Shown piece after piece: positions 10,461-23,279 of a DNA stretch of 43,507 bases. The translations under genes were made by a program, and so were the position numbers. This DNA comes from an uncultured Pseudomonadota bacterium (lineage in GTDB: Bacteria; Myxococcota_A; UBA796; GCA-2862545): the NCBI GenBank assembly GCA_903861005.1, contig CAIOSP010000080.1, forward strand, positions 1 through 43,507, in the 5' to 3' direction. The notes below the pieces were generated by a model. That model had not been told where the DNA came from. It made no database searches and saw only the letters and a program-made list of their open reading frames with translations. How positions within the stretch are numbered: position 1 is the stretch's first letter; each line of letters begins with the position of its first letter.

Positions 10461-12035
10461 ATGACGCGCAGACCCACCCACATCCTCGGCTTCTATGGCA
10501 CCCAGCTGGACGCGGGCCTGCGGCCGGACCGCTGGGAGCGCTGGCGCCCCACCGTCTCGCTCTTTCAGCACGACGATCTGCAGGTCGACCGCCTGGACCT
10601 GCTGGTGCCGCCGCGCTGGGAGAAGCGCGCCGAGGGCTTGATCGCGGACATCCACCAGCTGTCGCCGGACACGGTTGTGGTGGCGCACCCCTTCCTGGCC
10701 CCTGACCCGTGGGACTTTGAGGACGTCTACGCGGAGCTCGACGACCTGGTGCAGCGGCTCGACTTCCGCCCGGACGACGTCGACCACTACGTGCACCTCA
10801 CCACCGGCACGCACGTCGCGCAGATCTGCCTGTTCCTGCTCTGTGAGTCGCGACAGATCCCCGGCCGCCTGATCCAGACGGGCCCGGCCACGCGCGGCCC
10901 GGGGCCCACGTGGTCGATCGTGGACCTGGAGCTGAGCCGCTACGACCGCCTCGCCGCGCGCTTCAAGGCAAGGCGCGAGGCCGCCCAGGGCGTGCTGCGC
11001 TCCGGCATCCCGACGCTCAACCCGGGCTTCGCGGCCCTCGTCGAGCGGCTGGAGCGCGTCGCCACGGCCAGCCGCGCGCCCATCCTGCTCCAGGGGCCCA
11101 CGGGCTCTGGCAAGACGCGCCTCGCGCGGCGCATCCACGATCTCAAGCGCAGCGGACGCCTCGCGTCGGGCAACCTGGTCGAGCTGAACTGCGCCACGCT
11201 GCGTGGGGATCAGGCGATGAGCGCGCTGTTCGGCCACGTGCGGGGCGCGTTCACCGGTGCGGCGGCGGATCGCGCGGGCCTGCTGCGTGCTGCCGACAAG
11301 GGCGTGCTCTTCCTCGACGAGATCGGTGAGCTGGGCCTGGACGAGCAGGCCATGCTGCTGCGGGCGCTGGAGGACAAGCGCTTCCTCCCCGTCGGCGCCG
11401 ACAAGGAGGTCTCCAGCGACTTCCAGCTGGTCGCAGGCACCCACCGTGATCTGCATGCCTCCGTCGCCGAGGGCCGCTTCCGCGAGGACCTGCTCGCGCG
11501 CATCGACCTGTGGACCTTCCACCTGCCCGGCCTCGCCGCCCGCAAGGAGGACGTGGCGCCCAACCTCGACTGGGAGCTGGAGCGCATCTCCGAGGAGCTC
11601 GGCCGACGCGTGCGCATGAACCGCGAGGCGCGCGACCGCTACCTCGGCTGGGCCACCGGGCCGGACGCCACGTGGCGCGGCAGCTTCCGCGACCTGCACG
11701 CCTCAGTCGTGCGCATGGCGACGCTGGCCGACGGAGGCCGGATCGATCGCGCGATCGTCGACGACGAGCTCGTGAGGCTCACGCCGCACGCCGGGCCCGA
11801 TCGGGCGCAGCGGGTGCTGGGCGCGCGGGCCGCGTCGCTCGATCGCTTCGACCGCGTGCAGCTCGACGACGTGCTCGCGGTGTGCGCCGCCGCGCGGACC
11901 CTGTCGGAGGCGGGGCGCACGCTGTTCGCCGCGTCGCGCGCTGAGCGCACCTCCGTGAACGATGCGGACAGGCTCCGCAAGTACCTCGCGCGCTTCGATC
12001 TGAGCTTCGACGACACGCGCGCCGCGCGCGCTTGA
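10461..12035 (+). CDS. rtcR: Sigma-54 activator of the RNA repair operon, RtcR
   Basis: A 524-residue enhancer-binding protein that activates sigma-54 polymerase at rtcBA. The N-terminal ~180 residues match the RtcR-type CARF sensor domain (start FYGTQLD, then PWDFEDVYAELDD, TTGTHVAQICLFLL), which in enteric bacteria keeps the protein inactive until an RNA-damage ligand is sensed. The central AAA+ domain has Walker A GPTGSGKT (about 211), the sigma-54 contact loop GAFTGA (about 262-267) and Walker B VLFLDEIGEL. The C-terminus (VNDADRLRKYLARFDL) is the RtcR-type DNA-binding end. ATG 10461 is preferred over the upstream in-frame ATG at 10416 because the conserved protein starts here and an AGG lies 5 nt before it. 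It is transcribed away from rtcB, the arrangement known in E. coli. Confidence 0.97.
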   Translation: MTRRPTHILGFYGTQLDAGLRPDRWERWRPTVSLFQHDDLQVDRLDLLVPPRWEKRAEGLIADIHQLSPDTVVVAHPFLAPDPWDFEDVYAELDDLVQRLDFRPDDVDHYVHLTTGTHVAQICLFLLCESRQIPGRLIQTGPATRGPGPTWSIVDLELSRYDRLAARFKARREAAQGVLRSGIPTLNPGFAALVERLERVATASRAPILLQGPTGSGKTRLARRIHDLKRSGRLASGNLVELNCATLRGDQAMSALFGHVRGAFTGAAADRAGLLRAADKGVLFLDEIGELGLDEQAMLLRALEDKRFLPVGADKEVSSDFQLVAGTHRDLHASVAEGRFREDLLARIDLWTFHLPGLAARKEDVAPNLDWELERISEELGRRVRMNREARDRYLGWATGPDATWRGSFRDLHASVVRMATLADGGRIDRAIVDDELVRLTPHAGPDRAQRVLGARAASLDRFDRVQLDDVLAVCAAARTLSEAGRTLFAASRAERTSVNDADRLRKYLARFDLSFDDTRAARA

Positions 12036-12043
12036 CCATGGCC

Positions 12044-12061
12044 CTCCGTCAGGCGACGGAG
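12044..12061 (+). terminator. Hairpin after rtcR, possible terminator
   Basis: CTCCGTC (12044-12050) and GACGGAG (12055-12061) form a perfect 7-bp stem with a 4-nt loop, 8 nt past the rtcR stop and 25 nt before the next gene. No T-tract follows, so termination is uncertain. Confidence 0.4.
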
Positions 12062-12086
12062 CCTTCGCACACCCCTGGGAGCCCCT

Positions 12087-13082
12087 ATGTTCGCGTTGAC
12101 CCTGCTTCTGCTGACCCAGCCCGCCTCGGCGTTCGGCTCGCCGAACAACAACAGCTTTGAGTCGGGCGACCTCACCAGCTGGTCGCACTGGGGCGCGGGC
12201 ACAATCGTCGGCACCGACGGCGCGTACGACGGCAGCTACGCGGCGCAGCTCTCGCTGGATCCATCCTCCACCGGCTCGCAGGAGTACGGCCTGTACCAGG
12301 ACGTGCCGGGGATCACCGCGGGGGCGCATGTCCAGTTCACGATCCTCGCGTCCATGTCCGTGGCCAACCCCCTGACGGCGGGCGCGACGCTGCGGATCAA
12401 GTGGGAGGCGTACAACGGCCCCACGTACCAGGGGGCGTCGGAGACCATCGTCCCCCTGCCGATCGACGGCAGCTTTGGCTACGGCAAGGTCGAGCTCACC
12501 GTGCCCGCGGACAACACGCTGCTGCGCTACACGCTGCTGATCGAGGGCCCGCAGGCCGGCGCCGGCGGCACCGTCTACGTCGACCTCGCGGAGATCGCGC
12601 CGTACACGGACGACTGGTGCCCTGAGATCTTGGACCAGCCGCTGGACGCCGACGGTGACCAGGTCGGCGACGACTGCGACGTGTGCGTGGGCGACGACAC
12701 CAGCGGCGACGCCGACGCCGACACCATCTGCGACAACCTCGACGTGTGCCTGGGCGACGACTCGGTCGGCGACGCGGACGGCGACGGCGTGTGCGACGAT
12801 CGAGACGCCTGCGAGGGCGATGACGCCACAGGAGACGCCGACGGCGATGGCCTGTGCGCGGACAGCGATCCGGACGACGCGGGCGACACCGACGTCGCCG
12901 CCGACACCGACCTGGCCGGCGCGGACACCGACCTCGGCGGCGCCGACACCGACGTGGCCGCGGACACCGACGACGGATCCACCGGGGATGCCGGCTGCGG
13001 CTGCGCGCAGTCGGGCTCTCCGATCGCGTTGGCGCCGCTCGCCCTGCTGGCCCTGGCTGCGCGTCGCCGCCGTCGCGGCTGA
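12087..13082 (+). CDS. Secreted MYXO-CTERM-like protein with TSP3 repeats
   Basis: A 331-residue cell-surface protein. It has a short cleavable signal peptide (ending near residue 15), a beta-sandwich, carbohydrate-binding-like domain (about 20-170), and then thrombospondin type 3 style calcium-binding repeats (about 180-270) with recurrent DADGDxVxDxxD patterns and paired cysteines. An Asp/Thr spacer built from DTDxAG-type units (about 270-300) follows. The C-terminus has GCGCA, a hydrophobic helix and RRRRRG, the layout of the MYXO-CTERM sorting signal used in myxobacteria for surface anchoring after processing. No enzyme motif is visible, so an adhesive or structural role is the best inference. 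It is 51 nt downstream of rtcR with a hairpin between, so it is probably unrelated to RNA repair. This is one of the stronger taxonomic clues in the window. Confidence 0.85.
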   Translation: MFALTLLLLTQPASAFGSPNNNSFESGDLTSWSHWGAGTIVGTDGAYDGSYAAQLSLDPSSTGSQEYGLYQDVPGITAGAHVQFTILASMSVANPLTAGATLRIKWEAYNGPTYQGASETIVPLPIDGSFGYGKVELTVPADNTLLRYTLLIEGPQAGAGGTVYVDLAEIAPYTDDWCPEILDQPLDADGDQVGDDCDVCVGDDTSGDADADTICDNLDVCLGDDSVGDADGDGVCDDRDACEGDDATGDADGDGLCADSDPDDAGDTDVAADTDLAGADTDLGGADTDVAADTDDGSTGDAGCGCAQSGSPIALAPLALLALAARRRRRG

Positions 13083-13105
13083 CGCGCCTGCGTGCGGGGC
13101 GGACG

Positions 13106-13148
13106 CGCGTGAGGATCGCGCGCCACCCTCACGCGTGAGGCGGCGCGC
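13106..13148 (+). terminator. Strong GC hairpin with an alternative pairing
   Basis: GCGCGCC (13118-13124) pairs with GGCGCGC (13142-13148) around the perfect palindrome CCTCACGCGTGAGG (13127-13140). An earlier copy of CGCGTGAGG (13106-13114) can instead pair with CCTCACGCG (13127-13135). It lies 24-66 nt past the MYXO-CTERM stop and most likely ends that transcript, though no T-tract follows. Confidence 0.5.
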
Positions 13149-13309
13149 GCCCGAGCGAGACATCGCGCCCGACTTGGTCCGCGGGCCAATTCCACGGGGC
13201 AAGACGCGTGTGGGGGCGCGGGTGCATTTCAGCCCCGCTGCGCCGCCCCAAAGAGCACGACCGCCCGCCGCCCCAGACGACAGGCTACAAACCCAGCGCT
13301 GGAGGCAAG

Positions 13310-14137
13310 ATGCGTCGCGTCGGGCTTGGGATCGGGCTGGTGTGGTTCACGGCGTGCGCAAAGGCCGCCCCGATCGTGGCCGCCGCGGCCGCGCCCCCTA
13401 TGGACGAGGTGCTCGCCCTCGCTTGGGTGCAAGCCAGCGCCGAGCACGAGGCCGCCACGCTCACCGTCTACCAGTCGGCCCACGCTGCGCTCGACCGCGC
13501 GCTCGCGGACACCACCTGGAGCGCGGCCCTGGAGCAGTCCGACGACTTCAGCGCGCTGCCGCCGGCCATCGTCGTCGACGTCGACGAGACCGTGCTCGAC
13601 AACAGCCCGTACCAGGTCCGAAACCTGCTGGACGGCAAGGGCTTCGACAAGGCCACCTGGGGCGCGTGGGTGGCCGAGGCGCACGCCGACGAGGTGCGTG
13701 GCGCCGCCGCCTTCCTGGCCGCCGCCGACGCGCGCGGCGTCGACGTGTTCTATGTGTCCAACCGCGAGGCCGATCAGGTCGAGCCCACCCGCGCCAACCT
13801 GGCCGCGCTCGGCTTCCCCGACACCGCGGACGCGCACACCTTCCTCTTCCGCGACGGCACGTCCGACAAGTCCGCGCGCCGGACCGCCGTGGCCGCCACG
13901 CACCGCGTGGTCCTCGTGTTCGGCGACAACCTGTTCGACTTCGTCGAGTCGCCCAAGCCCGACCTCACCGCGCGCCTGGCCATGGTCCACGACCACCAGG
14001 CGTGGTGGGGCACGCGCTGGTTCCTGGTGCCCAACCCGCTGTACGGTTCGTGGGACGACGCGATCGGGAGCTACGCGCACCCGGACGCGGCGACGCAGCA
14101 CACCCACCGGATCCACGCGCTCGACGCGCGGCGCTGA
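13310..14137 (+). CDS. HAD-type acid phosphatase lipoprotein, e(P4)/class B-C like
   Basis: A 275-residue lipid-anchored phosphatase of the HAD superfamily, like the outer-membrane e(P4) nucleotidase of Haemophilus. The ATG at 13310 follows a GGAGG site. The signal ends in FTAC (Cys16). Motif I is VVDVDETVLDNS, giving nucleophile Asp90 and acid/base Asp92. Motif II is in YVSNRE. A late GDNLFDF segment supplies the acidic metal ligands. Length matches the family. The likely role is dephosphorylation of nucleotides or other small phosphate esters at the envelope. It converges on rlmE with 13 nt between the stops. Together with the PhoD-like protein it makes two exported phosphatases in this window. 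Confidence 0.9.
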   Translation: MRRVGLGIGLVWFTACAKAAPIVAAAAAPPMDEVLALAWVQASAEHEAATLTVYQSAHAALDRALADTTWSAALEQSDDFSALPPAIVVDVDETVLDNSPYQVRNLLDGKGFDKATWGAWVAEAHADEVRGAAAFLAAADARGVDVFYVSNREADQVEPTRANLAALGFPDTADAHTFLFRDGTSDKSARRTAVAATHRVVLVFGDNLFDFVESPKPDLTARLAMVHDHQAWWGTRWFLVPNPLYGSWDDAIGSYAHPDAATQHTHRIHALDARR

Positions 14138-14150
14138 TCCAAACACGCGC

Positions 14151-14747
14151 CTACCGCTTGTCCAACCCCACCAGGAAGAACTCGCGCGACACCTGACGCA
14201 CCGCCTCAGGGCGATACCGCTTCACGGTGCCGAACACCTTGCGCACCTGCTCTTGGAAGGCCTGCGCGTCTCGACCGTCGAACACCTTCACGACGAACGA
14301 GCCGCCCTTCACGACGACCTTCTCGGCCAGCTCCAGCGCGCAGGTCGCGAGCTCGATCTGCCGGTAGTGATCGGCCTCCACCACGCCGGTGGTGTTGGGC
14401 GCCATGTCCGACAGCAGCAGGTCAGCCGGGCCACCGAGTGCCGCGATCAGCTCCTCCGCCGAGACCTCAAGCACGCTGCGCGCGATCCAGGTCCCGCCCG
14501 ACAGCTGCGGCTCGTGCAGGTCGACGCCCACCAACACACCCTTGCTGCCGATCTGCTGGAGCACGTACTGGCTCCAGGACCCGGGGAAGCAGCCCAGATC
14601 CACCACGCGCTGGCCCTGCTTGAAGATGCGGACGCTGCTCTGGATCTCCGACAGCTTGAACACGGAGCGCGCCTTGAAGCCCTGCTCCTTGGCGTCCCGG
14701 GTGAACCTGTCCGGCTTGGCGTACGGGTTCTTGGCCTTCCCACTCAT
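14151..14747 (-). CDS. rlmE: 23S rRNA 2'-O-ribose methyltransferase RlmE (FtsJ)
   Basis: A 198-residue SAM-dependent methyltransferase that modifies U2552 of 23S rRNA during late 50S assembly. It has the SAM-binding VVDLGCFPGSWSQYV motif and the K-D-K-E catalytic set: Lys in RSVFKL, Asp in LLSDMAPN, Lys in FVVKVF, Glu in SREFFLVG. The start at 14747 (MSGKAKNPYAKPD) gives the family N-terminus and overlaps the engB stop by 4 nt (ATGA), so the two are translationally coupled. An upstream in-frame start would lie inside engB. Coupling rRNA modification with a ribosome-assembly GTPase makes sense as one functional unit. Confidence 0.96.
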   Translation of the reverse strand: MSGKAKNPYAKPDRFTRDAKEQGFKARSVFKLSEIQSSVRIFKQGQRVVDLGCFPGSWSQYVLQQIGSKGVLVGVDLHEPQLSGGTWIARSVLEVSAEELIAALGGPADLLLSDMAPNTTGVVEADHYRQIELATCALELAEKVVVKGGSFVVKVFDGRDAQAFQEQVRKVFGTVKRYRPEAVRQVSREFFLVGLDKR

Positions 14748-15346
14748 GGCACGGCACACGCGGCTTCGAGGTGGTCCCACAGCGAGTCGACGCCCACGCG
14801 CGACTTCGCGGAGAAGGCGATCGGCTGGCCCGGGTCCAGGTGATGGACGTCGTGGAAGCGGCGCAGCGCGGGCTTGATCTCATGCTTGCTCAGCCGGTCG
14901 ATCTTGGTGGCGACCACCAACAGCGGCGTGCCGAAGTCGCGCAGGCCCTCGATCAGGATGGTGTCGATCTCCTGCGGCGGCAGGCGGCCGTCGATCAACG
15001 ACACGACCAAGCGCAGGTTGGGCCGCTCGCCCAAGTAGGCCTCGATCATCGGCTTCCAGGAGATCGTGACCGAGTCCGGCACGTCGGCGAAGCCGTAGCC
15101 AGGCAGATCGACGAACACACACGCCGATCCGACCTTGAACAGGTTCACCAGCTGCGTACGACCCGGGGTGGACGACACGCGCGCGGCGCGGCGCCCCCCC
15201 AACAGGGCGTTGAGGGCGCTGGACTTGCCCACGTTGCTTCGGCCGACGAACGCGATCTCCGGCAGCGTCTGCGCGGGGACCGCGCCGGGGAAGCTGCCGA
15301 TGAAGTCGACGTTGCCTGAATGATCTCGGAGTCGCTTAGGAGACAT
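14744..15346 (-). CDS. engB: Ribosome-biogenesis GTPase EngB (YihA/YsxC)
   Basis: A 200-residue GTPase needed for large-subunit assembly in other bacteria. All G motifs are present: GRSNVGKSS (G1), STPGRT (G2), DLPGYG (G3), TKID (G4) and SAKS (G5). The N-terminal segment and length match the family. It begins 43 nt after the stop of the ABC binding-protein gene on the same strand, so it may be read together with that operon, and its stop overlaps rlmE. Confidence 0.96.
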   Translation of the reverse strand: MSPKRLRDHSGNVDFIGSFPGAVPAQTLPEIAFVGRSNVGKSSALNALLGGRRAARVSSTPGRTQLVNLFKVGSACVFVDLPGYGFADVPDSVTISWKPMIEAYLGERPNLRLVVSLIDGRLPPQEIDTILIEGLRDFGTPLLVVATKIDRLSKHEIKPALRRFHDVHHLDPGQPIAFSAKSRVGVDSLWDHLEAACAVP

Positions 15347-15389: not shown

Positions 15390-16334
15390 CTACGGCAGGG
15401 TCTTCCAGGCGCCCTGCGCGGTGCTGCCCGCGGGAAGCAGGTCGATCGAGATCATGGCGCCGACCAGCTCGTCCCAGCGCGCCTGCGTCATCTTGCCCAG
15501 GCCGTCTGTGCCGGTGGCGAAGGGCTTCTGGGCCTCAGTCACACAAGCCAGGGTCTCGGGCGTCAGCTGGTCGTTGAGCTTGCCGATCGCCGCGTTCGCG
15601 GCGGTCGGGTCGGCAAGGTAGGCGGTCCACGCCTCCTCGGTGGCCTTCACGAACGCGGGCGCCCACGCGGGAGGCGGGTCGGAGAACGCCAGCAGCGTGC
15701 CGTACGGGTTCCAGCCGGCGTCCGACGCCTTGAGGAACACCGAGTCGACGCCCTTGGCCTTCACCGCGCACGGCTCGGCCGTGATGTAGGCCTGCTGGGC
15801 CAGCGTCGGGTCGTTGAGCCAGGTGGCGATTGAGCCCGTCGTCGGGATCATCTCAACCTTGCCCTCCCACGCATACTTCTTCCAGAGGAAGCGCTGCAGC
15901 GGGCCACCGACCTCCAGCGCCAGCTTGCCTCCGTGGATGTCCGCGAACGAGGTCAGCCCCTGCTCCGTGTGCGCCATCAGGCCCATGGGCGACAGCTGGA
16001 AGGCAGGCCACACGCCGATTGCGGTCACGCCCTTGGAGCGCTTGAGCAGCAGGTCGTCCGCCGCCGAGATCGCCGCGTCGGCCTGGCCGCTGGCCAACAG
16101 CTCGAGCGTGGGCGCGCCGGGGCCGCCGGGCATGATCTCCACGTCAAAGCCGGCCTTGGCGTAGGAGCCGCTGACCACGCCCTGGTAGAACCCGCCGAAC
16201 TCCGGCTCGGGCACCCAGTTCAGCGCCAGCTTCACGTGCTGGACGGCGGGCGGTGCGTCCGCGGGCGGGGCCGTAGGCGCGAGCGTAGGACCAGAAGAAC
16301 AAGCGAACAAAGAGAGCAGAGCGAGCGCAATCAT
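15390..16334 (-). CDS. NMT1/ThiY-like ABC transporter substrate-binding lipoprotein
   Basis: A 314-residue binding protein of the NMT1/THI5-like family, the group that captures pyrimidine precursors of thiamin or alkyl-sulfonates. The signal peptide ends in LFAC (Cys12) followed by a Pro/Ala spacer. The N-terminal core runs KLALNWVPEPEFGGFYQG, then LASGQADAAIS and a helical C-terminus, all typical. The ATG at 16334 overlaps the permease stop by 4 nt. No TPP riboswitch was found ahead of the operon, so a thiamin-precursor substrate is only one possibility. Confidence 0.9.
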   Translation of the reverse strand: MIALALLSLFACSSGPTLAPTAPPADAPPAVQHVKLALNWVPEPEFGGFYQGVVSGSYAKAGFDVEIMPGGPGAPTLELLASGQADAAISAADDLLLKRSKGVTAIGVWPAFQLSPMGLMAHTEQGLTSFADIHGGKLALEVGGPLQRFLWKKYAWEGKVEMIPTTGSIATWLNDPTLAQQAYITAEPCAVKAKGVDSVFLKASDAGWNPYGTLLAFSDPPPAWAPAFVKATEEAWTAYLADPTAANAAIGKLNDQLTPETLACVTEAQKPFATGTDGLGKMTQARWDELVGAMISIDLLPAGSTAQGAWKTLP

Positions 16335-17089
16335 GTAGAGCCTCCAGCGTGCCAGCGACCGATAACCCGACGCTCCAAGGCCCGTACCGAGCCGAAGATC
16401 GCCAGCGAGAGGCCGGTCGCGCAAAGGATCGCCGCGACCGAGAGCCCCATCTCCGCGGTGCGCGCGGCCCGCAGCACCAGGAACCCTAGCCCCGGCGGTA
16501 CGCCGTTCGACCCGATGAACTCGCCGATGATGGCGCCGATCACGGCCAGCCCGCCCGCCACCCGAAAGCCGGCGAACAGGTACGGGAGCGCGGCTGGGAA
16601 GCGCAGCTTGAGCAGGGTCTGCGTCCAGGTGGCGCCGTAGAGGTGCAGCAACTCCACCTGCTCGGGCTCGGCGGCCCGCAGGCCCACGTTGGCCGCCGTG
16701 AGGATCGGAAAGAAGCTGGCGATGGCGCCCGACGCGATCGCCACCGGCGAGCCGTAGCCCAGCCACACCACAAACAGCGGCGCCACCGCGACGATCGGCA
16801 GCGTCTGGACCAGCAGCGCGTACGGGTAGAACGCGGCCTCGATCCACTTGGACCGCAAGAAGAGCACCCCGCCCGCCAAACCTGCCGCGGTGGCCAGCGT
16901 GAGCGCGATCAACGCGCACTTTCCCGTCTGCCAAGTGGCCGTGAGGAGGTCCTCACGCTGCGCCCAGGCGACCTCCGCCACCTCCATCGGCGACGGCAGC
17001 AGGATGGGCGGAAGTCGGCTGGCCAGCAGCGACCACAACACGATCACCGAGAGCGCGCCGAGCGCCGGGAGCCACGCGCCACGGGTCAT
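16331..17089 (-). CDS. ABC transporter permease (SsuC/ThiX-like)
   Basis: A 252-residue inner-membrane permease with about six helices. The cytoplasmic EAA loop is recognisable near residues 130-165 (LYGATWTQTLLKLRFPAALP), the contact point with the ATPase. Family resemblance is to the BPD_transp_1 permeases of nitrate/sulfonate/pyrimidine systems. It overlaps the ATPase gene upstream and the binding-protein gene downstream by 4 nt each, so the three subunits should be made in balanced amounts. Confidence 0.93.
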   Translation of the reverse strand: MTRGAWLPALGALSVIVLWSLLASRLPPILLPSPMEVAEVAWAQREDLLTATWQTGKCALIALTLATAAGLAGGVLFLRSKWIEAAFYPYALLVQTLPIVAVAPLFVVWLGYGSPVAIASGAIASFFPILTAANVGLRAAEPEQVELLHLYGATWTQTLLKLRFPAALPYLFAGFRVAGGLAVIGAIIGEFIGSNGVPPGLGFLVLRAARTAEMGLSVAAILCATGLSLAIFGSVRALERRVIGRWHAGGST

Positions 17090-17805
17090 AGGGCCGCCTC
17101 AGCGCGCATGGCGATCTGACCCAGGGCCGGGTCGTGGAGCAGCTCGGGCGGGCGTGGGCGCGGCAGGCCGACCCTGATGTCGTCGACGAGCCGGCCCGGG
17201 TCGGCCTTGAACACCAGCACGCGATCCGCCATCAGCACGGCCTCGTCGATGTCGTGGCTGACGAGCAGCACGGTGAAGCGCGCGGCCTCCCACAGGGCCA
17301 GGAACTCCTGCTGCATGCGCTTGCGGGTGATCGGGTCGAGCGCTGAGAACGGCTCGTCCATCAGCAGCAGCGACGGGCTGGTCACCAGCGCGCGGGCGAT
17401 CGAGGCGCGCATGCGCATGCCGCCGGACAGCTGACGCGGCAGCAGCTCCGCGGAGTCGGCCAAGCCCACCCGGGCGAGCGCGTCCCGCACCCGGGCTTGG
17501 GCGCTGGGCCCCTTCTCGCCCTTGAGCTCCAGCGGCAGGCCCACGTTGGCCGCCACCGAGCGCCAGGGCAGCAGCGTGGGGCTCTGGAACACAAACGCCC
17601 GCTCCCCCGCCGGGGTGGTCACCGTGCCCGCGTCTGGCTGGAGCAGGCCCGCCGCCAGGCGCAGCACCGTCGACTTGCCGCAGCCCGACGCGCCGACCAG
17701 CGCGGTGATGCCTCCGGCGGCGGCCTCGAAGCTGAGGCCCTCGAATAGAGGGCGCGCTCCGGGCCACGCAAATCGCACAGAGTCGAGGCGGACGGCGGTG
17801 TTCAC
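17086..17805 (-). CDS. ABC transporter ATP-binding protein (SsuB/ThiZ-like)
   Basis: A 239-residue ATPase that drives the transporter encoded by the next two genes. Walker A is GASGCGKST (38-46), the signature is LSGGM, Walker B is LLLMDEPFSALD, and the switch histidine is in LLVSHDIDEA. The best family match is the nitrate/sulfonate/taurine/pyrimidine group. It is the first gene of the operon, with its ATG at 17805 and divergent to the cyanophycinase gene across about 140 nt. Confidence 0.94.
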   Translation of the reverse strand: MNTAVRLDSVRFAWPGARPLFEGLSFEAAAGGITALVGASGCGKSTVLRLAAGLLQPDAGTVTTPAGERAFVFQSPTLLPWRSVAANVGLPLELKGEKGPSAQARVRDALARVGLADSAELLPRQLSGGMRMRASIARALVTSPSLLLMDEPFSALDPITRKRMQQEFLALWEAARFTVLLVSHDIDEAVLMADRVLVFKADPGRLVDDIRVGLPRPRPPELLHDPALGQIAMRAEAAL

Positions 17806-17945: not shown

Positions 17946-18785
17946 ATGCCTTCTCCCGAATCCACACGCGGCGCGCGCGGCTACATCATCCCCATCGGCG
18001 GCGCCGAGGACAAGGTGAGTGACCGAGCCATCTTGACCCGGTTCACCGACCTGTCGGGCGGACGCACCGCGCGCATCGCGGTGTTCCCCACCGCCAGCGA
18101 GCTGTCCACCACCGGCGATCTCTACCGGCAGGTCTTCACGTCCATCGGGGCCGCGGCCGTCGACGTGTTCGAGATCACCGACCGCAAGTCGGCGAACGAC
18201 CCTGTGAACCTCGCACGCCTGGACGAGGCCACCGGTATCTTCTTCACCGGCGGCAACCAGCTGCGCCTGTCCACCATCCTGGGCGGCACAGCGATCGCCA
18301 CGGCCATCCGACGCCGCAACGCCGCGGGCATCCCGGTCGCGGGCACGTCCGCGGGCGCTGCGTTCGTCAGCGAGCACATGATCGCGTTTGGTCGCGAGGG
18401 CGCCACGCCGCGCGCCGGCTTCGTGACGCTGTCGCCGGGCCTGGGCCTGACCAACCGCGTGATCGTCGACCAGCACTTCCGCGAGCGCGACCGCCTGGGC
18501 CGCCTGCTGACCGCGCTGGCCTACAACCCCTTCGCCATCGGCCTGGGCCTGGACGAAGGCACCGCCGCGTTCATCGACCCTGAGAACCGGATCGAGGTCC
18601 TGGGCGCCGGGGGCATCACCGTGGTCGACGTGTCGCAGCTCGATCACAGCTCGATGGCGCGCAACCAGGAGGGTGAGGTCGTCGAGCTGGTCGGTGTGCG
18701 GCTTCACGTGCTCGCAAACGGCGCAGTCTACGATCTCGAGTCGCGCACCGGCAGCCTGGGCGACCAGCGCTCACGCGGGCGCTAG
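17946..18785 (+). CDS. cphB: Cyanophycinase, intracellular type
   Basis: A 279-residue serine peptidase of family S51 that cuts cyanophycin (poly-Asp with Arg side chains) into beta-Asp-Arg dipeptides. The nucleophile is Ser135 in the GTSAGAAF elbow. Other family motifs are IPIGGAEDK, FFTGGNQLRL, VDQHFRERDRLGRL (His177) and GLGLDEGTA. No signal peptide is seen, so it acts on the cytosolic granule. It is followed 63 nt later by the cyanophycin synthetase gene on the same strand, which places storage and mobilisation of the polymer in one locus. Confidence 0.95.
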   Translation: MPSPESTRGARGYIIPIGGAEDKVSDRAILTRFTDLSGGRTARIAVFPTASELSTTGDLYRQVFTSIGAAAVDVFEITDRKSANDPVNLARLDEATGIFFTGGNQLRLSTILGGTAIATAIRRRNAAGIPVAGTSAGAAFVSEHMIAFGREGATPRAGFVTLSPGLGLTNRVIVDQHFRERDRLGRLLTALAYNPFAIGLGLDEGTAAFIDPENRIEVLGAGGITVVDVSQLDHSSMARNQEGEVVELVGVRLHVLANGAVYDLESRTGSLGDQRSRGR

Positions 18786-18848
18786 AACAAAGTCCGGGCA
18801 ATCCCGCGCCGCTTTTGGTAAGTCCCCGGTCTGATTCAGGGGCGCACC

Positions 18849-21653
18849 ATGCAGCTGATCGAGAAGCAGACCTACGTCGGGCCCAGCCTGTACGCGAACT
18901 TCCCCGTGATCCGGTTCACGGTGGACCTCGGCCCCCTGGAGTCTGCGCCCAGCGCGAAGATCCCCGGCTTCAACGACGGCCTTCTGGCTGCCCTGCCCTC
19001 GCTCGCTGAGCACAGCTGCTCCTATAGCGAGGCGGGCGGCTTCGTCCGTCGCCTCCACGAGGACGGCGGCACCTGGCTCGGCCACGTGCTGGAGCACGTC
19101 GCGATCGAGATCCAGAACCTGATCGGCGCCAAGGTCACGTTCGGCAAGACGCGCGGCACCGGCGAGGCCGGCCGTTACCACGTGGTCTTCGAGTACGAGG
19201 ACGCGGCGTCCGGCATCGAGGCGGGCATGTTGGCGCTGCGCCTGCTGCACAGCCTGATCCCCGCGGAGCTGCGTCCGGGCGTACAGGATGACCCCTCGTT
19301 CCAGTTCCAGGAGACGCTGGAGGAGCTGACGCGCACCTCGCAGCGCCGCGCGCTCGGGCCGTCCACCGGATCGCTGGTCCGCTCCGCCATGAGCCGCGAC
19401 ATTCCCTGGATCCGCCTCAACGATCACAGCTTGGTCCAGTTCGGCCACGGCCGCTACCAGCGCCGGATCCAGGCCACGATCACGAGCGAGACCCGACACA
19501 TCGCCGTGGAGATCGCGTCGGACAAGGAGCAGACCAACCGCATCCTCGGCGACCTGGGCCTGCCCGTCCCGCGCCAGATGCAGACCCGCAACGTGGACGC
19601 CTGCATCCGCGCCGCCAACCGCATCGGCTACCCGGTGGTGGTCAAGCCGCTCGACGCCAACCACGGCCGCGGCGTGTCGATTGGCCTGGAGGACGACGAG
19701 TCGGTCCGCGTCGCGTTCGAGAAGGCCCAGGAGCACAGCCGCACCGTGCTCGTCGAGAGCTTCATCCAGGGCTTCGACCACCGCATCCTCGTGGTGAACG
19801 GCGTGGTCGTCGCGGTGGCCAAGCGCGTGCCCGGCCACGTGGTCGGCGACGGCGTGCGCACCATCGCGCAGCTCGTCGAGATCGTGAACCAGGACCCGCG
19901 CCGCGGCATCGGCCACGAGAAGGTGCTGACCCGCCTTGAGCTCGACCACCAGGCCGAGCGCCTGCTCGACGAAGGCGGCCGCTCGTCTGAGGACGTCCTG
20001 CCGCCCGGCGAGATCTTCTACCTACGCTCCACCGGCAACCTCTCCACCGGCGGCACGGCGATCGATCTGACGGACGAGTGCCACCCGGACAACCTGGAGA
20101 TGGCGGCCCGCGCGGCAGCGGCGATCGGCCTCGACGTGTGCGGCGTGGACTTCCTCACGCCCGACGTGACGCGCTCCTACCGCGAAGTCGGCGGAGGCAT
20201 CTGCGAGGTCAACGCCGCGCCCGGCTTCCGCATGCACGTCGCCCCCAGCGAGGGCAAGCCGCGCGACGTCGCCGGCGCCGTGATGGAGATGCTCTTCCCG
20301 CCCGGCACGCCCGCGCGCATCCCGATCGCCGCCATCACCGGCACGAACGGCAAGACGACCACCACGCGCATGCTCGCGCACATCCACAAGCTCAACGGAT
20401 CCACCGTGGGCATGTCGACGACCGACGGCGTGTACATCGACGGCCAGCGCACGGTCGAGGGCGACATGACCGGCCCAGTCGCTGCGCAGATGGTGCTGCG
20501 CGACCCCACCGTCGGCGTGGCGGTGCTGGAGACCGCGCGCGGCGGCCTGCTGCGCGCGGGCCTGGGCTACCGCAGCCCCAACGTGGCGTGCTGCCTCAAC
20601 GTCACGTCGGACCACCTCGGCATGAAGGGCGTCGACACGCTGGATCAGCTCGCGCTGGTCAAGCGCATCCCGATCGAGGTCGCGCGCGACGCGGTCATCC
20701 TCAACGCGGATGATCCCCGTTGCCTGCAGATGGCCGGGCACGCCCTCGCCGAGCGCGTCGGCTACGTCACGCTCAACCCCACGCACGGCCTGGTGCGCGA
20801 GCACATCCGCGCGGGGGGCCTCGCGGTCGCGCTCGAAGGCGGCGTCAACGGCCAGATGATCACGCTGTACGACAAGGGCGCGCACATGCCGCTCATGTGG
20901 ACGCACCTGATCCCCGCCACCATGGAGGGCAAGGCGATCCACAACGTGCAGAACGCCATGTTCGCCGCCGCCATGGCCCACGCGATGGGCGTGCGCCTGG
21001 ACAACATCCGCCACGGCCTGCGCACGTTCGACACCACGTTCTTCCAGGTCCCCGGGCGCATGAACGTGTTCGACGAGCACGGCTTCAAGGTCATCCTCGA
21101 CTACGGCCACAACCCGGCCGCCGTCGACGCGATGTGCACCCTGGTCGACCGGATCACGTCGGACGGCAGCACGCGCTTCCGCGGCACGCGCACCTGCGTG
21201 CTCTCCATGCCGGGCGATCGCCGTGACGAGGACGTGGTCAACGTGGCCACGCGCGCCGCGCGCAGCTTTGATCGCTACCTCATCCGCGAGGATGATGACC
21301 GCCGCGGGCGCGCCCCGGGCGTGATCGCCGAGCTGCTCCGCCAGACGCTGCTGTCGTCGGGCGTGGCACCCGAGAACGTCGAGGTCATCCTGTCCGAGGA
21401 GGAGGCGATCGACACGGCGCTCACGCGCGCTCAGCAGGGCGATCTGCTGCTGCTCTTCGCCGACAAGGTCACGCGCAGCTGGAAGCAGGTGATCTACTTC
21501 GGCGGCCGCAGCCCAGGCGTCGAGACGCCGTCCGCGCCGCCCCCGCCCGCGTTTGGCGACGGCTACGTCGAAGCTGCGCCGCTCAGCGCCACCGACGCGG
21601 GCTACGTCGTCGACAGCCGCGGCGTCACGCTCGCGCTGCAGACCGAGGACTGA
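18849..21653 (+). CDS. cphA: Cyanophycin synthetase
   Basis: A 934-residue enzyme that builds the nitrogen-storage polymer multi-L-arginyl-poly-L-aspartate. Three parts are visible. The N-terminal domain (1-160) has GTWLGHVLEHVAIEIQ. The ATP-grasp domain (about 215-480), which adds Asp, has IASDKEQTNRIL and VVVKPLDANHGRGVSIG. The Mur-ligase-like domain (about 490-880), which adds Arg, has ITGTNGKTTTTRM (Lys502), LETARGGLLRAGLGY, NVTSDHLG and LDYGHNPAAVDAM. All the key loops are intact, so the enzyme should be active. It is slightly longer than typical homologues, mainly in a low-complexity tail. A 3-nt gap separates it from the Mur-only gene downstream. Confidence 0.97.
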   Translation: MQLIEKQTYVGPSLYANFPVIRFTVDLGPLESAPSAKIPGFNDGLLAALPSLAEHSCSYSEAGGFVRRLHEDGGTWLGHVLEHVAIEIQNLIGAKVTFGKTRGTGEAGRYHVVFEYEDAASGIEAGMLALRLLHSLIPAELRPGVQDDPSFQFQETLEELTRTSQRRALGPSTGSLVRSAMSRDIPWIRLNDHSLVQFGHGRYQRRIQATITSETRHIAVEIASDKEQTNRILGDLGLPVPRQMQTRNVDACIRAANRIGYPVVVKPLDANHGRGVSIGLEDDESVRVAFEKAQEHSRTVLVESFIQGFDHRILVVNGVVVAVAKRVPGHVVGDGVRTIAQLVEIVNQDPRRGIGHEKVLTRLELDHQAERLLDEGGRSSEDVLPPGEIFYLRSTGNLSTGGTAIDLTDECHPDNLEMAARAAAAIGLDVCGVDFLTPDVTRSYREVGGGICEVNAAPGFRMHVAPSEGKPRDVAGAVMEMLFPPGTPARIPIAAITGTNGKTTTTRMLAHIHKLNGSTVGMSTTDGVYIDGQRTVEGDMTGPVAAQMVLRDPTVGVAVLETARGGLLRAGLGYRSPNVACCLNVTSDHLGMKGVDTLDQLALVKRIPIEVARDAVILNADDPRCLQMAGHALAERVGYVTLNPTHGLVREHIRAGGLAVALEGGVNGQMITLYDKGAHMPLMWTHLIPATMEGKAIHNVQNAMFAAAMAHAMGVRLDNIRHGLRTFDTTFFQVPGRMNVFDEHGFKVILDYGHNPAAVDAMCTLVDRITSDGSTRFRGTRTCVLSMPGDRRDEDVVNVATRAARSFDRYLIREDDDRRGRAPGVIAELLRQTLLSSGVAPENVEVILSEEEAIDTALTRAQQGDLLLLFADKVTRSWKQVIYFGGRSPGVETPSAPPPPAFGDGYVEAAPLSATDAGYVVDSRGVTLALQTED

Positions 21654-21656
21654 GGC

Positions 21657-23279
21657 GTGGAGGCTCGCCGCATCACCGGTCGGCACCTGCTGCTGGACGG
21701 CCCGGGCGCCGCGATCGACGTGCCCGCCGACGACGCCGCGCGGGTCGCCGCGCGTTCGATCGACGCGGCGCGCGTGCTCGGCTGGCCGACCGCGCTGACC
21801 AAGCACGCGCACGCCGCCGGCGTCACGCTCGCGTTGCGCGCGCCGATAGACGTGCTGTACGCAGCGACGGCGATGTTGGAGTGGGCGGTCGAGCAGTCGT
21901 CGATCGACGGCCCCGAATTCGCGGCCGTGGTCGCCGCGCGAGACCAGGAGGTCATCCCCCGCCTCCGGGAGCTCGTCGATCGCTTCGGGCCGTCGGCCGC
22001 GTTCGTCGGCGAGGATGAGCTGACGTTGGGGCTCGGGAAGCACGGCCAGACCTGGCCTGTCACCGACCTGCCCGACCCCGCCACGCTCGTCGTTCCCCCT
22101 CGCCTGCCGGTCGCCTACCTCACCGGCACCAACGGCAAGACGACGACCACGCGCATCCTCGCGCGCCTGGTGCGCAGCGCAGGCCTGACGCCCGGCTACT
22201 CGTCGTCCGACGCGATCGTGATCGGCGACGAGATCCTCGAGTCCGGCGACTGGACCGGCCCGTGGGCCGCGCGCCGCGTGCTGCGTGATCTCCGCGTCGA
22301 CGTGGCGCTCCTGGAGACCGCGCGCGGCGGCATCCTCCGTCGCGGCTTGGTGCTCGACGGCGCGGACGTGGCGGTCGTCACCAACGTCACGCCCGATCAC
22401 TTCGGCGAGTGGGGCGTGGACGATCTGGCGACGATGGCGCGGGCCAAGCTGGTGGTCGGCGAGGCGCTGCGCGTGGGCGGCACGCTGGTGACCCACGCGC
22501 GCTGCGCGGTGCTGGTCGACGCGGTGCGCGCGCTCGCCGCCAAGCGCCCTGATCTGGTCCTCACGACCTTCGCCGACGAGGGCGACGGCCCGCACGATCC
22601 TGGCGTCACCGCGTGGGCCGACGCCTCCACGCTGCATGGGCCAGACGGGCTGCTCGTGCCGCTCGCCGACATCCCCGCGACCATCCACGGGACCGCGCGC
22701 CACAACGTCGAGAACGCCCTGGCCGCCTCGCTCGCCGCGTGGGCGCTCGGGCTGGGCGCGGACGCGATAGCGCGCGGGCTGCGCGCGTTCCGCCCTTCGC
22801 TCCAGGAGAGCCGTGGGCGCTTGAACCGCTACCGGCTGCCGTCTGGCGCGATGGTGGTGCTCGACTTCGCGCACAACCCGGACGGCGTGACGCGCGTGGT
22901 CGACACCGTCCGCGCGTGGCCGGCGATCCGTCGCACGGTGCTGGTCGGGCAGGCGGGCGACCGCAGCGACGACGACCTCCGCGAGCTGGCCCTGGCCGTG
23001 GCGCCGATGGGCGCCGACCGTGTGGTGCTCAAGGAGCTGTCGCACAAGCTGCGCGGCCGCGAGCTGGGCGAGATCCCCGCCATCCTGCGCCGCGAGCTGA
23101 TCGCCGCGGGTGTGCCCGCCGCCGCCATCACCGAGCCCACGCCCGACGAGACCAGCGGCGTCGAGGCGTCGCTCGACGGCCTGGCCGACGGCGATCTGGC
23201 GCTGCTGTTGGTCCACGAGGCGCTCGACGACACGCTGGCCGTGTTGGCGGCCCGCGGGGCGACAGCGCTCGACGGGTGA
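21657..23279 (+). CDS. Mur-ligase-only paralogue of cyanophycin synthetase
   Basis: A 540-residue protein related to the C-terminal half of CphA. The GTG start lies 3 nt after the cphA stop, with GAGG 8 nt upstream. The first ~145 residues are not an ATP-grasp domain and I do not recognise them. From about 150 the Mur-ligase core follows: LTGTNGKTTTTRIL (Lys161), LLETARGGILRRGLVL, VTNVTPDHFGEWG, HNVENALAAS, LDFAHNPDGV. The ATP and metal residues look intact. It probably carries out an ATP-dependent amide-bond step on cyanophycin or its precursor, such as attaching the side-chain amino acid, priming, or recycling dipeptides, but the reaction cannot be named from sequence. Similar Mur-ligase-only proteins are known beside cphA in other bacteria. 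Confidence 0.85.
   Translation: MEARRITGRHLLLDGPGAAIDVPADDAARVAARSIDAARVLGWPTALTKHAHAAGVTLALRAPIDVLYAATAMLEWAVEQSSIDGPEFAAVVAARDQEVIPRLRELVDRFGPSAAFVGEDELTLGLGKHGQTWPVTDLPDPATLVVPPRLPVAYLTGTNGKTTTTRILARLVRSAGLTPGYSSSDAIVIGDEILESGDWTGPWAARRVLRDLRVDVALLETARGGILRRGLVLDGADVAVVTNVTPDHFGEWGVDDLATMARAKLVVGEALRVGGTLVTHARCAVLVDAVRALAAKRPDLVLTTFADEGDGPHDPGVTAWADASTLHGPDGLLVPLADIPATIHGTARHNVENALAASLAAWALGLGADAIARGLRAFRPSLQESRGRLNRYRLPSGAMVVLDFAHNPDGVTRVVDTVRAWPAIRRTVLVGQAGDRSDDDLRELALAVAPMGADRVVLKELSHKLRGRELGEIPAILRRELIAAGVPAAAITEPTPDETSGVEASLDGLADGDLALLLVHEALDDTLAVLAARGATALDG

Follow-up and report, generated by a model that had tools for sequence, protein, structure and literature searches.

A CphA paralogue without the ATP-grasp domain, encoded next to cyanophycin synthetase, suggests an extra, previously undescribed ligation step in cyanophycin synthesis

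Known cyanophycin synthetases and the locus in the window

Nitrogen can be stored as cyanophycin, a polymer of biotechnological interest whose synthesis has been attributed to a single enzyme. This enzyme, CphA1 (TIGR02068; PDB 7lg5, 7wae), carries N, G and M domains in one chain and extends cyanophycin by Asp and then Arg. Cyanobacteria have a second CphA-derived enzyme, CphA2, whose only active site, that of the G domain, joins beta-Asp-Arg units back into polymer; its M domain is degenerate. The N domain of CphA2 lacks HxxEH, which in CphA1 belongs to the primer site Cx19HxxEH, present in 83% of CphA1 at 70% non-redundancy (PMC9262961). In beta- and gamma-proteobacteria and in some Myxococcota a second CphA-like gene, CphA', adjoins cphA on its upstream side; its product has the N and G domains but mostly no M-domain lid, and the CphAs paired with it have no Asp-terminated tail of the kind described below. 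MurE and other Mur ligases have a similar catalytic fold and mechanism in their M domain, preceded by a UDP-MurNAc-binding N domain.

We analyzed a cyanophycin locus within a window of 43,507 nt (the whole stretch of DNA under study) from a draft genome of 5.8 Mb, whose host is supported by kinship to be non-cyanobacterial and a member of Myxococcota. Here cphB, cphA and a third gene, hereafter the companion, follow one another on the + strand, with 3 nt (GGC) between cphA and the companion; the gene calls confirm the positions and strand given in the preliminary description. The features are as follows.

17946 to 18785, + strand: cphB, cyanophycinase, 279 aa (TIGR02069, 255 bits against a cut-off of 127; PF03575)
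18849 to 21653, + strand: cphA, cyanophycin synthetase 1, 934 aa (TIGR02068, 1123 bits against a cut-off of 850); N domain ~1-160, ATP-grasp G domain ~161-485, Mur-type M domain ~486-880, then the C-terminal tail
19083 to 19097, + strand: HxxEH (H79, E82, H83), primer-generating site of the CphA N domain, read in the translation
21612 to 21650, + strand: C-terminal tail motif of CphA, DSRGVTLALQTED-COOH (family consensus DERGVRLARE..D-COOH)
21657 to 23279, + strand: companion, CphA paralogue without G domain, 540 aa, GTG start, matching Mur_ligase_M and Mur_ligase_C only
21657 to 21992, + strand: companion residues ~1-112, predicted degenerate CphA-type N domain without HxxEH (VIA-align; weak hhalign match)
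21993 to 22058, + strand: companion residues ~113-134, putative remnant similar to the beginning of the G domain of CphA (DDxVSxGxG; hhalign E 0.004)
22122 to 22148, + strand: P-loop of the companion M domain, TGTNGKTTT, K161 corresponding to K499 of SuCphA1 (invariant in 48 companions)
22395 to 22400, + strand: companion D247-H248, corresponding to catalytic D585-H586 of SuCphA1 (D in 97% and H in 100% of companions)

The window CphA matches the PF18921 N domain, RimK ATP-grasp, Mur_ligase_M and Mur_ligase_C in Pfam; H55 and C57 lie upstream of its HxxEH, at a spacing of 21 instead of 19. An IaaA-type isoaspartyl aminopeptidase is encoded in the same genome, where a search for IadA found none. 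Since the genome has the IaaA-type gene in addition to the cph genes, cyanophycin synthesis and full degradation are both encoded, in keeping with the earlier proposal of a cyanophycin route with a poorly defined extra ligase step in a non-cyanobacterial host. By eye, genes for an NMT1-like substrate-binding protein, a permease and an ATPase of an ABC importer adjoin the operon (15390-17805, - strand).

The companion has in common with CphA1 the N and M folds, the operon context and, in its M domain, the P-loop and the catalytic D585-H586, K602, R731 and H748 (SuCphA1 numbering, used throughout), but it does not combine N, G and M in one chain: the G domain and HxxEH are missing, the DD of the predicted amino-acid loop is lost and it falls in a separate clade. 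Compared with CphA2 its make-up is the opposite, with M intact and no G (no ATP-grasp match at E 10), whereas unlike CphA' it lies downstream of cphA, lacks G and retains the lid (Mur_ligase_C). From MurE and its relatives it differs by a CphA-type N domain in place of the UDP-MurNAc-binding one and by its linkage to cphA. No description of this gene was found in the open-access literature, subscription papers and preprints lying outside the search, and its RefSeq-derived annotation reads 'Mur ligase family protein' and nothing more. In six myxococcotal loci of family f17 (L121, L122, L123, L124, L125, L127) a tandem CphA-like gene, in some without the M lid, stands upstream of cphA; neither companion nor Asp tail was seen in any of the six, and the CphA'-type gene and the companion look mutually exclusive in these samples.

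Structure, descent and active site of the companion

As the preliminary description had noted, the companion has an intact P-loop (TGTNGKTT) and no ATP-grasp domain: its Pfam matches are Mur_ligase_M (156-361) and Mur_ligase_C (387-517), and no ATP-grasp match appeared even at E 10. The best NCBIfam match is TIGR02068, over positions 477-856 only (290 bits, cut-off 850). The first ~145 residues, which had been called unrecognised, are indeed without a Pfam match at E 10, but by comparison of structures they are a degenerate CphA N domain and not a new domain. An AlphaFold2 model built on 24 companions reached a mean pLDDT of 93.6, CphA1 structures ranked first when it was searched with Foldseek, and VIA-align placed 517 of the 540 residues (1-534) on TeCphA1 7wae_A 4-877 with Z 38 and 2.6 A. 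As the M domain accounts for at most ~390 residues, the superposition also covers well over 100 N-terminal residues. The sequence profiles gave weak matches in the same order as in CphA, hhalign pairing companion 1-41 with the beginning of the N domain of CphA (E 0.005, probability 7%) and 101-134 with that of the G domain (CphA ~171-209; E 0.004), and the identity of the N domain is thus carried by the structural match of the model, the sequence-only profile match being weak. For the M domain, cyanophycin synthetases come first among solved relatives and MurE-like ligases next. The superposition over the whole length with the G domain missing identifies the modelled companion as a paralogue of CphA in which the ATP-grasp G domain is absent and which is made up of a degenerate N and a complete M domain. 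HxxEH was absent from the N domain of all companions.

Loss of the G domain was noticed elsewhere too. Two Bacteroidota proteins of 592 aa (L027:1538-3316, L032:7494-9272) consist of a PF18921-type N domain and Mur M and C domains and, like the companion, lack ATP-grasp; the one from L032, the only one placed in the tree, groups with Bacteroidota CphA M domains and not with companions, so that by sequence this G loss is probably independent of that in the companion. No full-length CphA was seen beside L027, L028, L031 or L032. Another G-domain loss is found at L128:2315-3667, upstream of cphA, where a protein of 450 aa runs from an N domain directly into part of an M domain.

The phylogeny of Mur domains that had been proposed as a check was carried out, and the companions formed one clade (SH-aLRT 89) apart from every CphA clade, with the partner CphAs as one clade (SH-aLRT 100) and a distinct group of Bacteroidota and Synechocystis. 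This tree rules out a recent origin of the companion from the M domain of the neighbouring CphA. Companions diverge faster than partner CphAs (mean p-distance 0.57 vs 0.36), and the distances of the two sets are correlated (r 0.74; 0 of 2000 permutations as high), a correlation which partly reflects shared ancestry and not interaction alone. These sequence data fit an old duplication that was inherited and transferred with CphA as a unit.

Comparison of 48 companions showed D536, E558 (the Mg2+ ligand), R561, D745, G775-D776-R777 and R807 to be invariant; K499 and H586 occur in 100% and D585 in 97%, and the P-loop, the K602 position, R731 and H748 are invariant or conserved in at least 91%. 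The partner CphA M domain has these ATP and catalytic residues too, and, being intact, rules out that the companion replaces a dead one. The differences lie elsewhere. D801-D802, present in 100% of partner CphAs, is variable in companions, the second position often being His or Lys, and position 803 is Tyr in 81%; position 567 is R in 100% of companions vs 22% of partner CphAs, positions 537 and 590 are mostly aromatic, and E607, a polymer contact in SuCphA1, is mostly replaced by Arg or another residue. Amino-acid specificity is read here by equating positions with those of MurE, in which the DNPR amino-acid loop would correspond to the 801-807 loop. Since this loop has His/Lys and Tyr in place of DD, and further pocket positions are altered, the companion probably does not bind its amino acid as CphA binds arginine, and the different side-chain amino acid suggested in the preliminary description is compatible with the altered pocket. 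As to the weight of the conserved residues, K499A of TeCphA1 was impaired (PMC9427784), and D585A H586A inactivates the CphA1 M domain (PMC9262961).

Distribution and the Asp-terminated tail of the partner CphA

More than 60 genomes from several phyla have these genes in the same order, so the arrangement is not due to chance. A search for related loci found 23 full-length relatives of the companion, with cphA directly upstream in 21; of the other two loci, L025 begins at the edge of a contig, and in L004 cphA is not linked to the companion. Among 284 Myxococcota genomes a full-length companion was present in 44, all of which (44/44) combine the full-length profile match with cphA in the same genome, by which we define the family, and in 41 of the 44 it lies immediately 3' of cphA on the same strand. 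No companion without cphA was found in these 284 genomes, while 26 have cphA and no full-length companion, a few of them with companion fragments at contig ends. In Pseudomonadota the pair occurs in 5 of 398 sampled genomes, one being the search centre, and in Planctomycetota the companion occurs in 15 of 199, cphA being undetected in one of these and divided between contigs in another. Furthermore, the order cyanophycinase, cphA, 'Mur ligase family protein' is found on complete plasmids of the cultured Alphaproteobacteria Shinella zoogloeoides and Ruegeria sp. THAF33 and on one labelled Roseateles, and a companion is present in one Gemmatimonadota record. The companion is thus found in at least four phyla of cyanophycin-storing bacteria. 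It has been lost at least three times with CphA retained, and is therefore dispensable for cyanophycin synthesis as such.

Two records deserve mention. The MAG titled 'Klebsiella pneumoniae' (L006) has the companion coordinates of G137, a genome of the window's own order, and its title is evidently wrong. At L023, by eye, an iadA-like gene (216-1406) stands ahead of cphB, and argF-like and argJ-like genes (10506-15043) lie 3' of the companion, which would place arginine supply near the operon.

In the partner CphAs a variable linker leads to a conserved, disordered C-terminal tail with the consensus [LV][IV]RDERGVRLARE..D, a further undescribed feature that the preliminary description does not mention. 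We collected tails with a regular expression (D or E, one residue of any kind, then RG[VI]) which left the last residue free; in 63 of 63 non-duplicate tailed CphAs the core DxRG[VI] was present and the last residue was Asp, and 13 further tails read without that filter all ended in Asp as well. Elsewhere a terminal Asp was noticed in 1 of 57 Bacteroidota CphAs, 0 of 40 other CphAs and 2 of 48 companions. Translational signals, by way of a Shine-Dalgarno or gene-overlap constraint, do not account for it, as both GAC and GAT and all three stop codons occur, the gaps range from -1 to more than 80 nt and the Asp persists without a companion. In Pseudomonadota and Planctomycetota the tail was present in every companion-paired CphA with a readable end and in none without a companion. 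In Myxococcota, nine companion-less genomes of one clade (L117-L120, G109, G166, G185, G210, G220) keep D[EA]RGVR and the final Asp, the RLAR part being degraded, which weakens the case for the tail as a pure companion-docking motif. Two other Myxococcota genomes (G035, G262) have a companion that is not linked to cphA, and the CphA detected there has no tail, so that tail and companion, strongly associated as they are, are separable. Downstream of one companion-less tailed cphA (L130:3009-5491) we noticed, by eye, genes for lysine 2,3-aminomutase-like and D-Ala-D-Ala-ligase-like ATP-grasp proteins.

Candidate function and its alternatives

Starting from the family, domain make-up, operon linkage, co-occurrence, conserved ATP and catalytic residues and conserved CphA tail, all of which are established, we infer that the companion is active, that its acceptor is cyanophycin-like and that its amino acid differs from that of CphA. 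We argue that an ancient duplicate of CphA would have lost its G domain and kept an intact Mur-type M domain and, in degenerate form, the polymer-binding N domain; the product would act in trans beside CphA. With ATP it would activate the free side-chain carboxylate of an Asp-terminated acceptor as an acyl phosphate, the acceptor being a cyanophycin chain end, possibly the Asp ending the CphA tail, and would couple to it an amino acid whose binding probably differs from that of arginine in CphA. To this reading we give a probability of about one half: an auxiliary, ATP-dependent amide ligase would work on cyanophycin acceptors that end in Asp, perhaps with an amino acid other than arginine. 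It would add to cyanophycin synthesis a ligation step not described so far.

The companion might instead add ordinary arginine to the side chain of Asp-terminated short chains or of the CphA tail and so speed polymer initiation. The M-domain chemistry is kept in the companion, the partner tails always end in Asp, and the minimal primer of CphA1 is (beta-Asp-Arg)-Asp (PMC9262961), all of which agree with such a role; but a CphA with an intact M domain and its own HxxEH primer site should need no help, and the D801-D802 conserved in partner CphAs is lost in the companion, so we regard it as unlikely. A version in which primers are supplied by cleavage, as had been suggested, is not borne out, since the companion has no HxxEH and 22 of 22 full-length tailed partner CphAs tested retain theirs, which makes a companion role in primer-making by cleavage unlikely. 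More speculatively, by analogy with glycogenin, cyanophycin could be protein-primed: the C-terminal Asp would be the acceptor, the companion would load the first side-chain amino acid and CphA would extend the backbone, leaving the polymer covalently on its own synthetase. We hold this to be improbable; the all-Asp C-terminus of the partner CphA makes self-priming directly testable.

Slightly less credit still is due to a non-catalytic, regulatory subunit forming mixed oligomers with CphA. In the CphA1 tetramer, contacts are made by N and Mcore (PMC9427784), and operon linkage with near-overlapping genes would suit such a partnership. On the other hand, ATP and catalytic residues that are invariant across 48 diverged companions are unlike those of a decaying pseudo-enzyme, and a fused-chain prediction (L014, stop read through) did not place the CphA tail confidently on the companion (tail pLDDT <50).

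A salvage ligase that makes, caps or re-uses free beta-Asp-Arg dipeptides has poor prospects. The operon is shared with cyanophycinase, which releases beta-Asp-Arg (PMC10206079), but the G domain, believed to re-use dipeptides in CphA2, is missing from the companion; it therefore cannot form backbone peptide bonds and re-polymerise dipeptides as CphA2 does, and a lone Mur domain would add a residue to a free carboxylate. The re-use of dipeptides offered in the preliminary description is disfavoured accordingly. That the companion is a stand-alone peptidoglycan or other cell-wall Mur ligase is most improbable, for in spite of the Mur fold its similarity to MurE and peptidoglycan ligases is weak and below the cut-offs (77 bits vs 476 for MurE, 74.5 vs 257) and the CphA profile fits far better, its N-terminal domain is CphA-type and not UDP-binding, the genome has a separate Mur ligase (C206), and in the Myxococcota sample it is limited to cphA-bearing genomes.

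The intact catalytic residues and the near-constant linkage to one CphA clade suggest that many bacteria may make a modified or differently initiated polymer. Since Shinella zoogloeoides ATCC 19623 and Ruegeria sp. THAF33 are cultured carriers of the operon, the uncultured organism is not needed for a test. In Ruegeria, saccharopine-dehydrogenase-like and aldehyde dehydrogenase genes (L115:1908-4529) precede the operon, a possible link with lysine metabolism.
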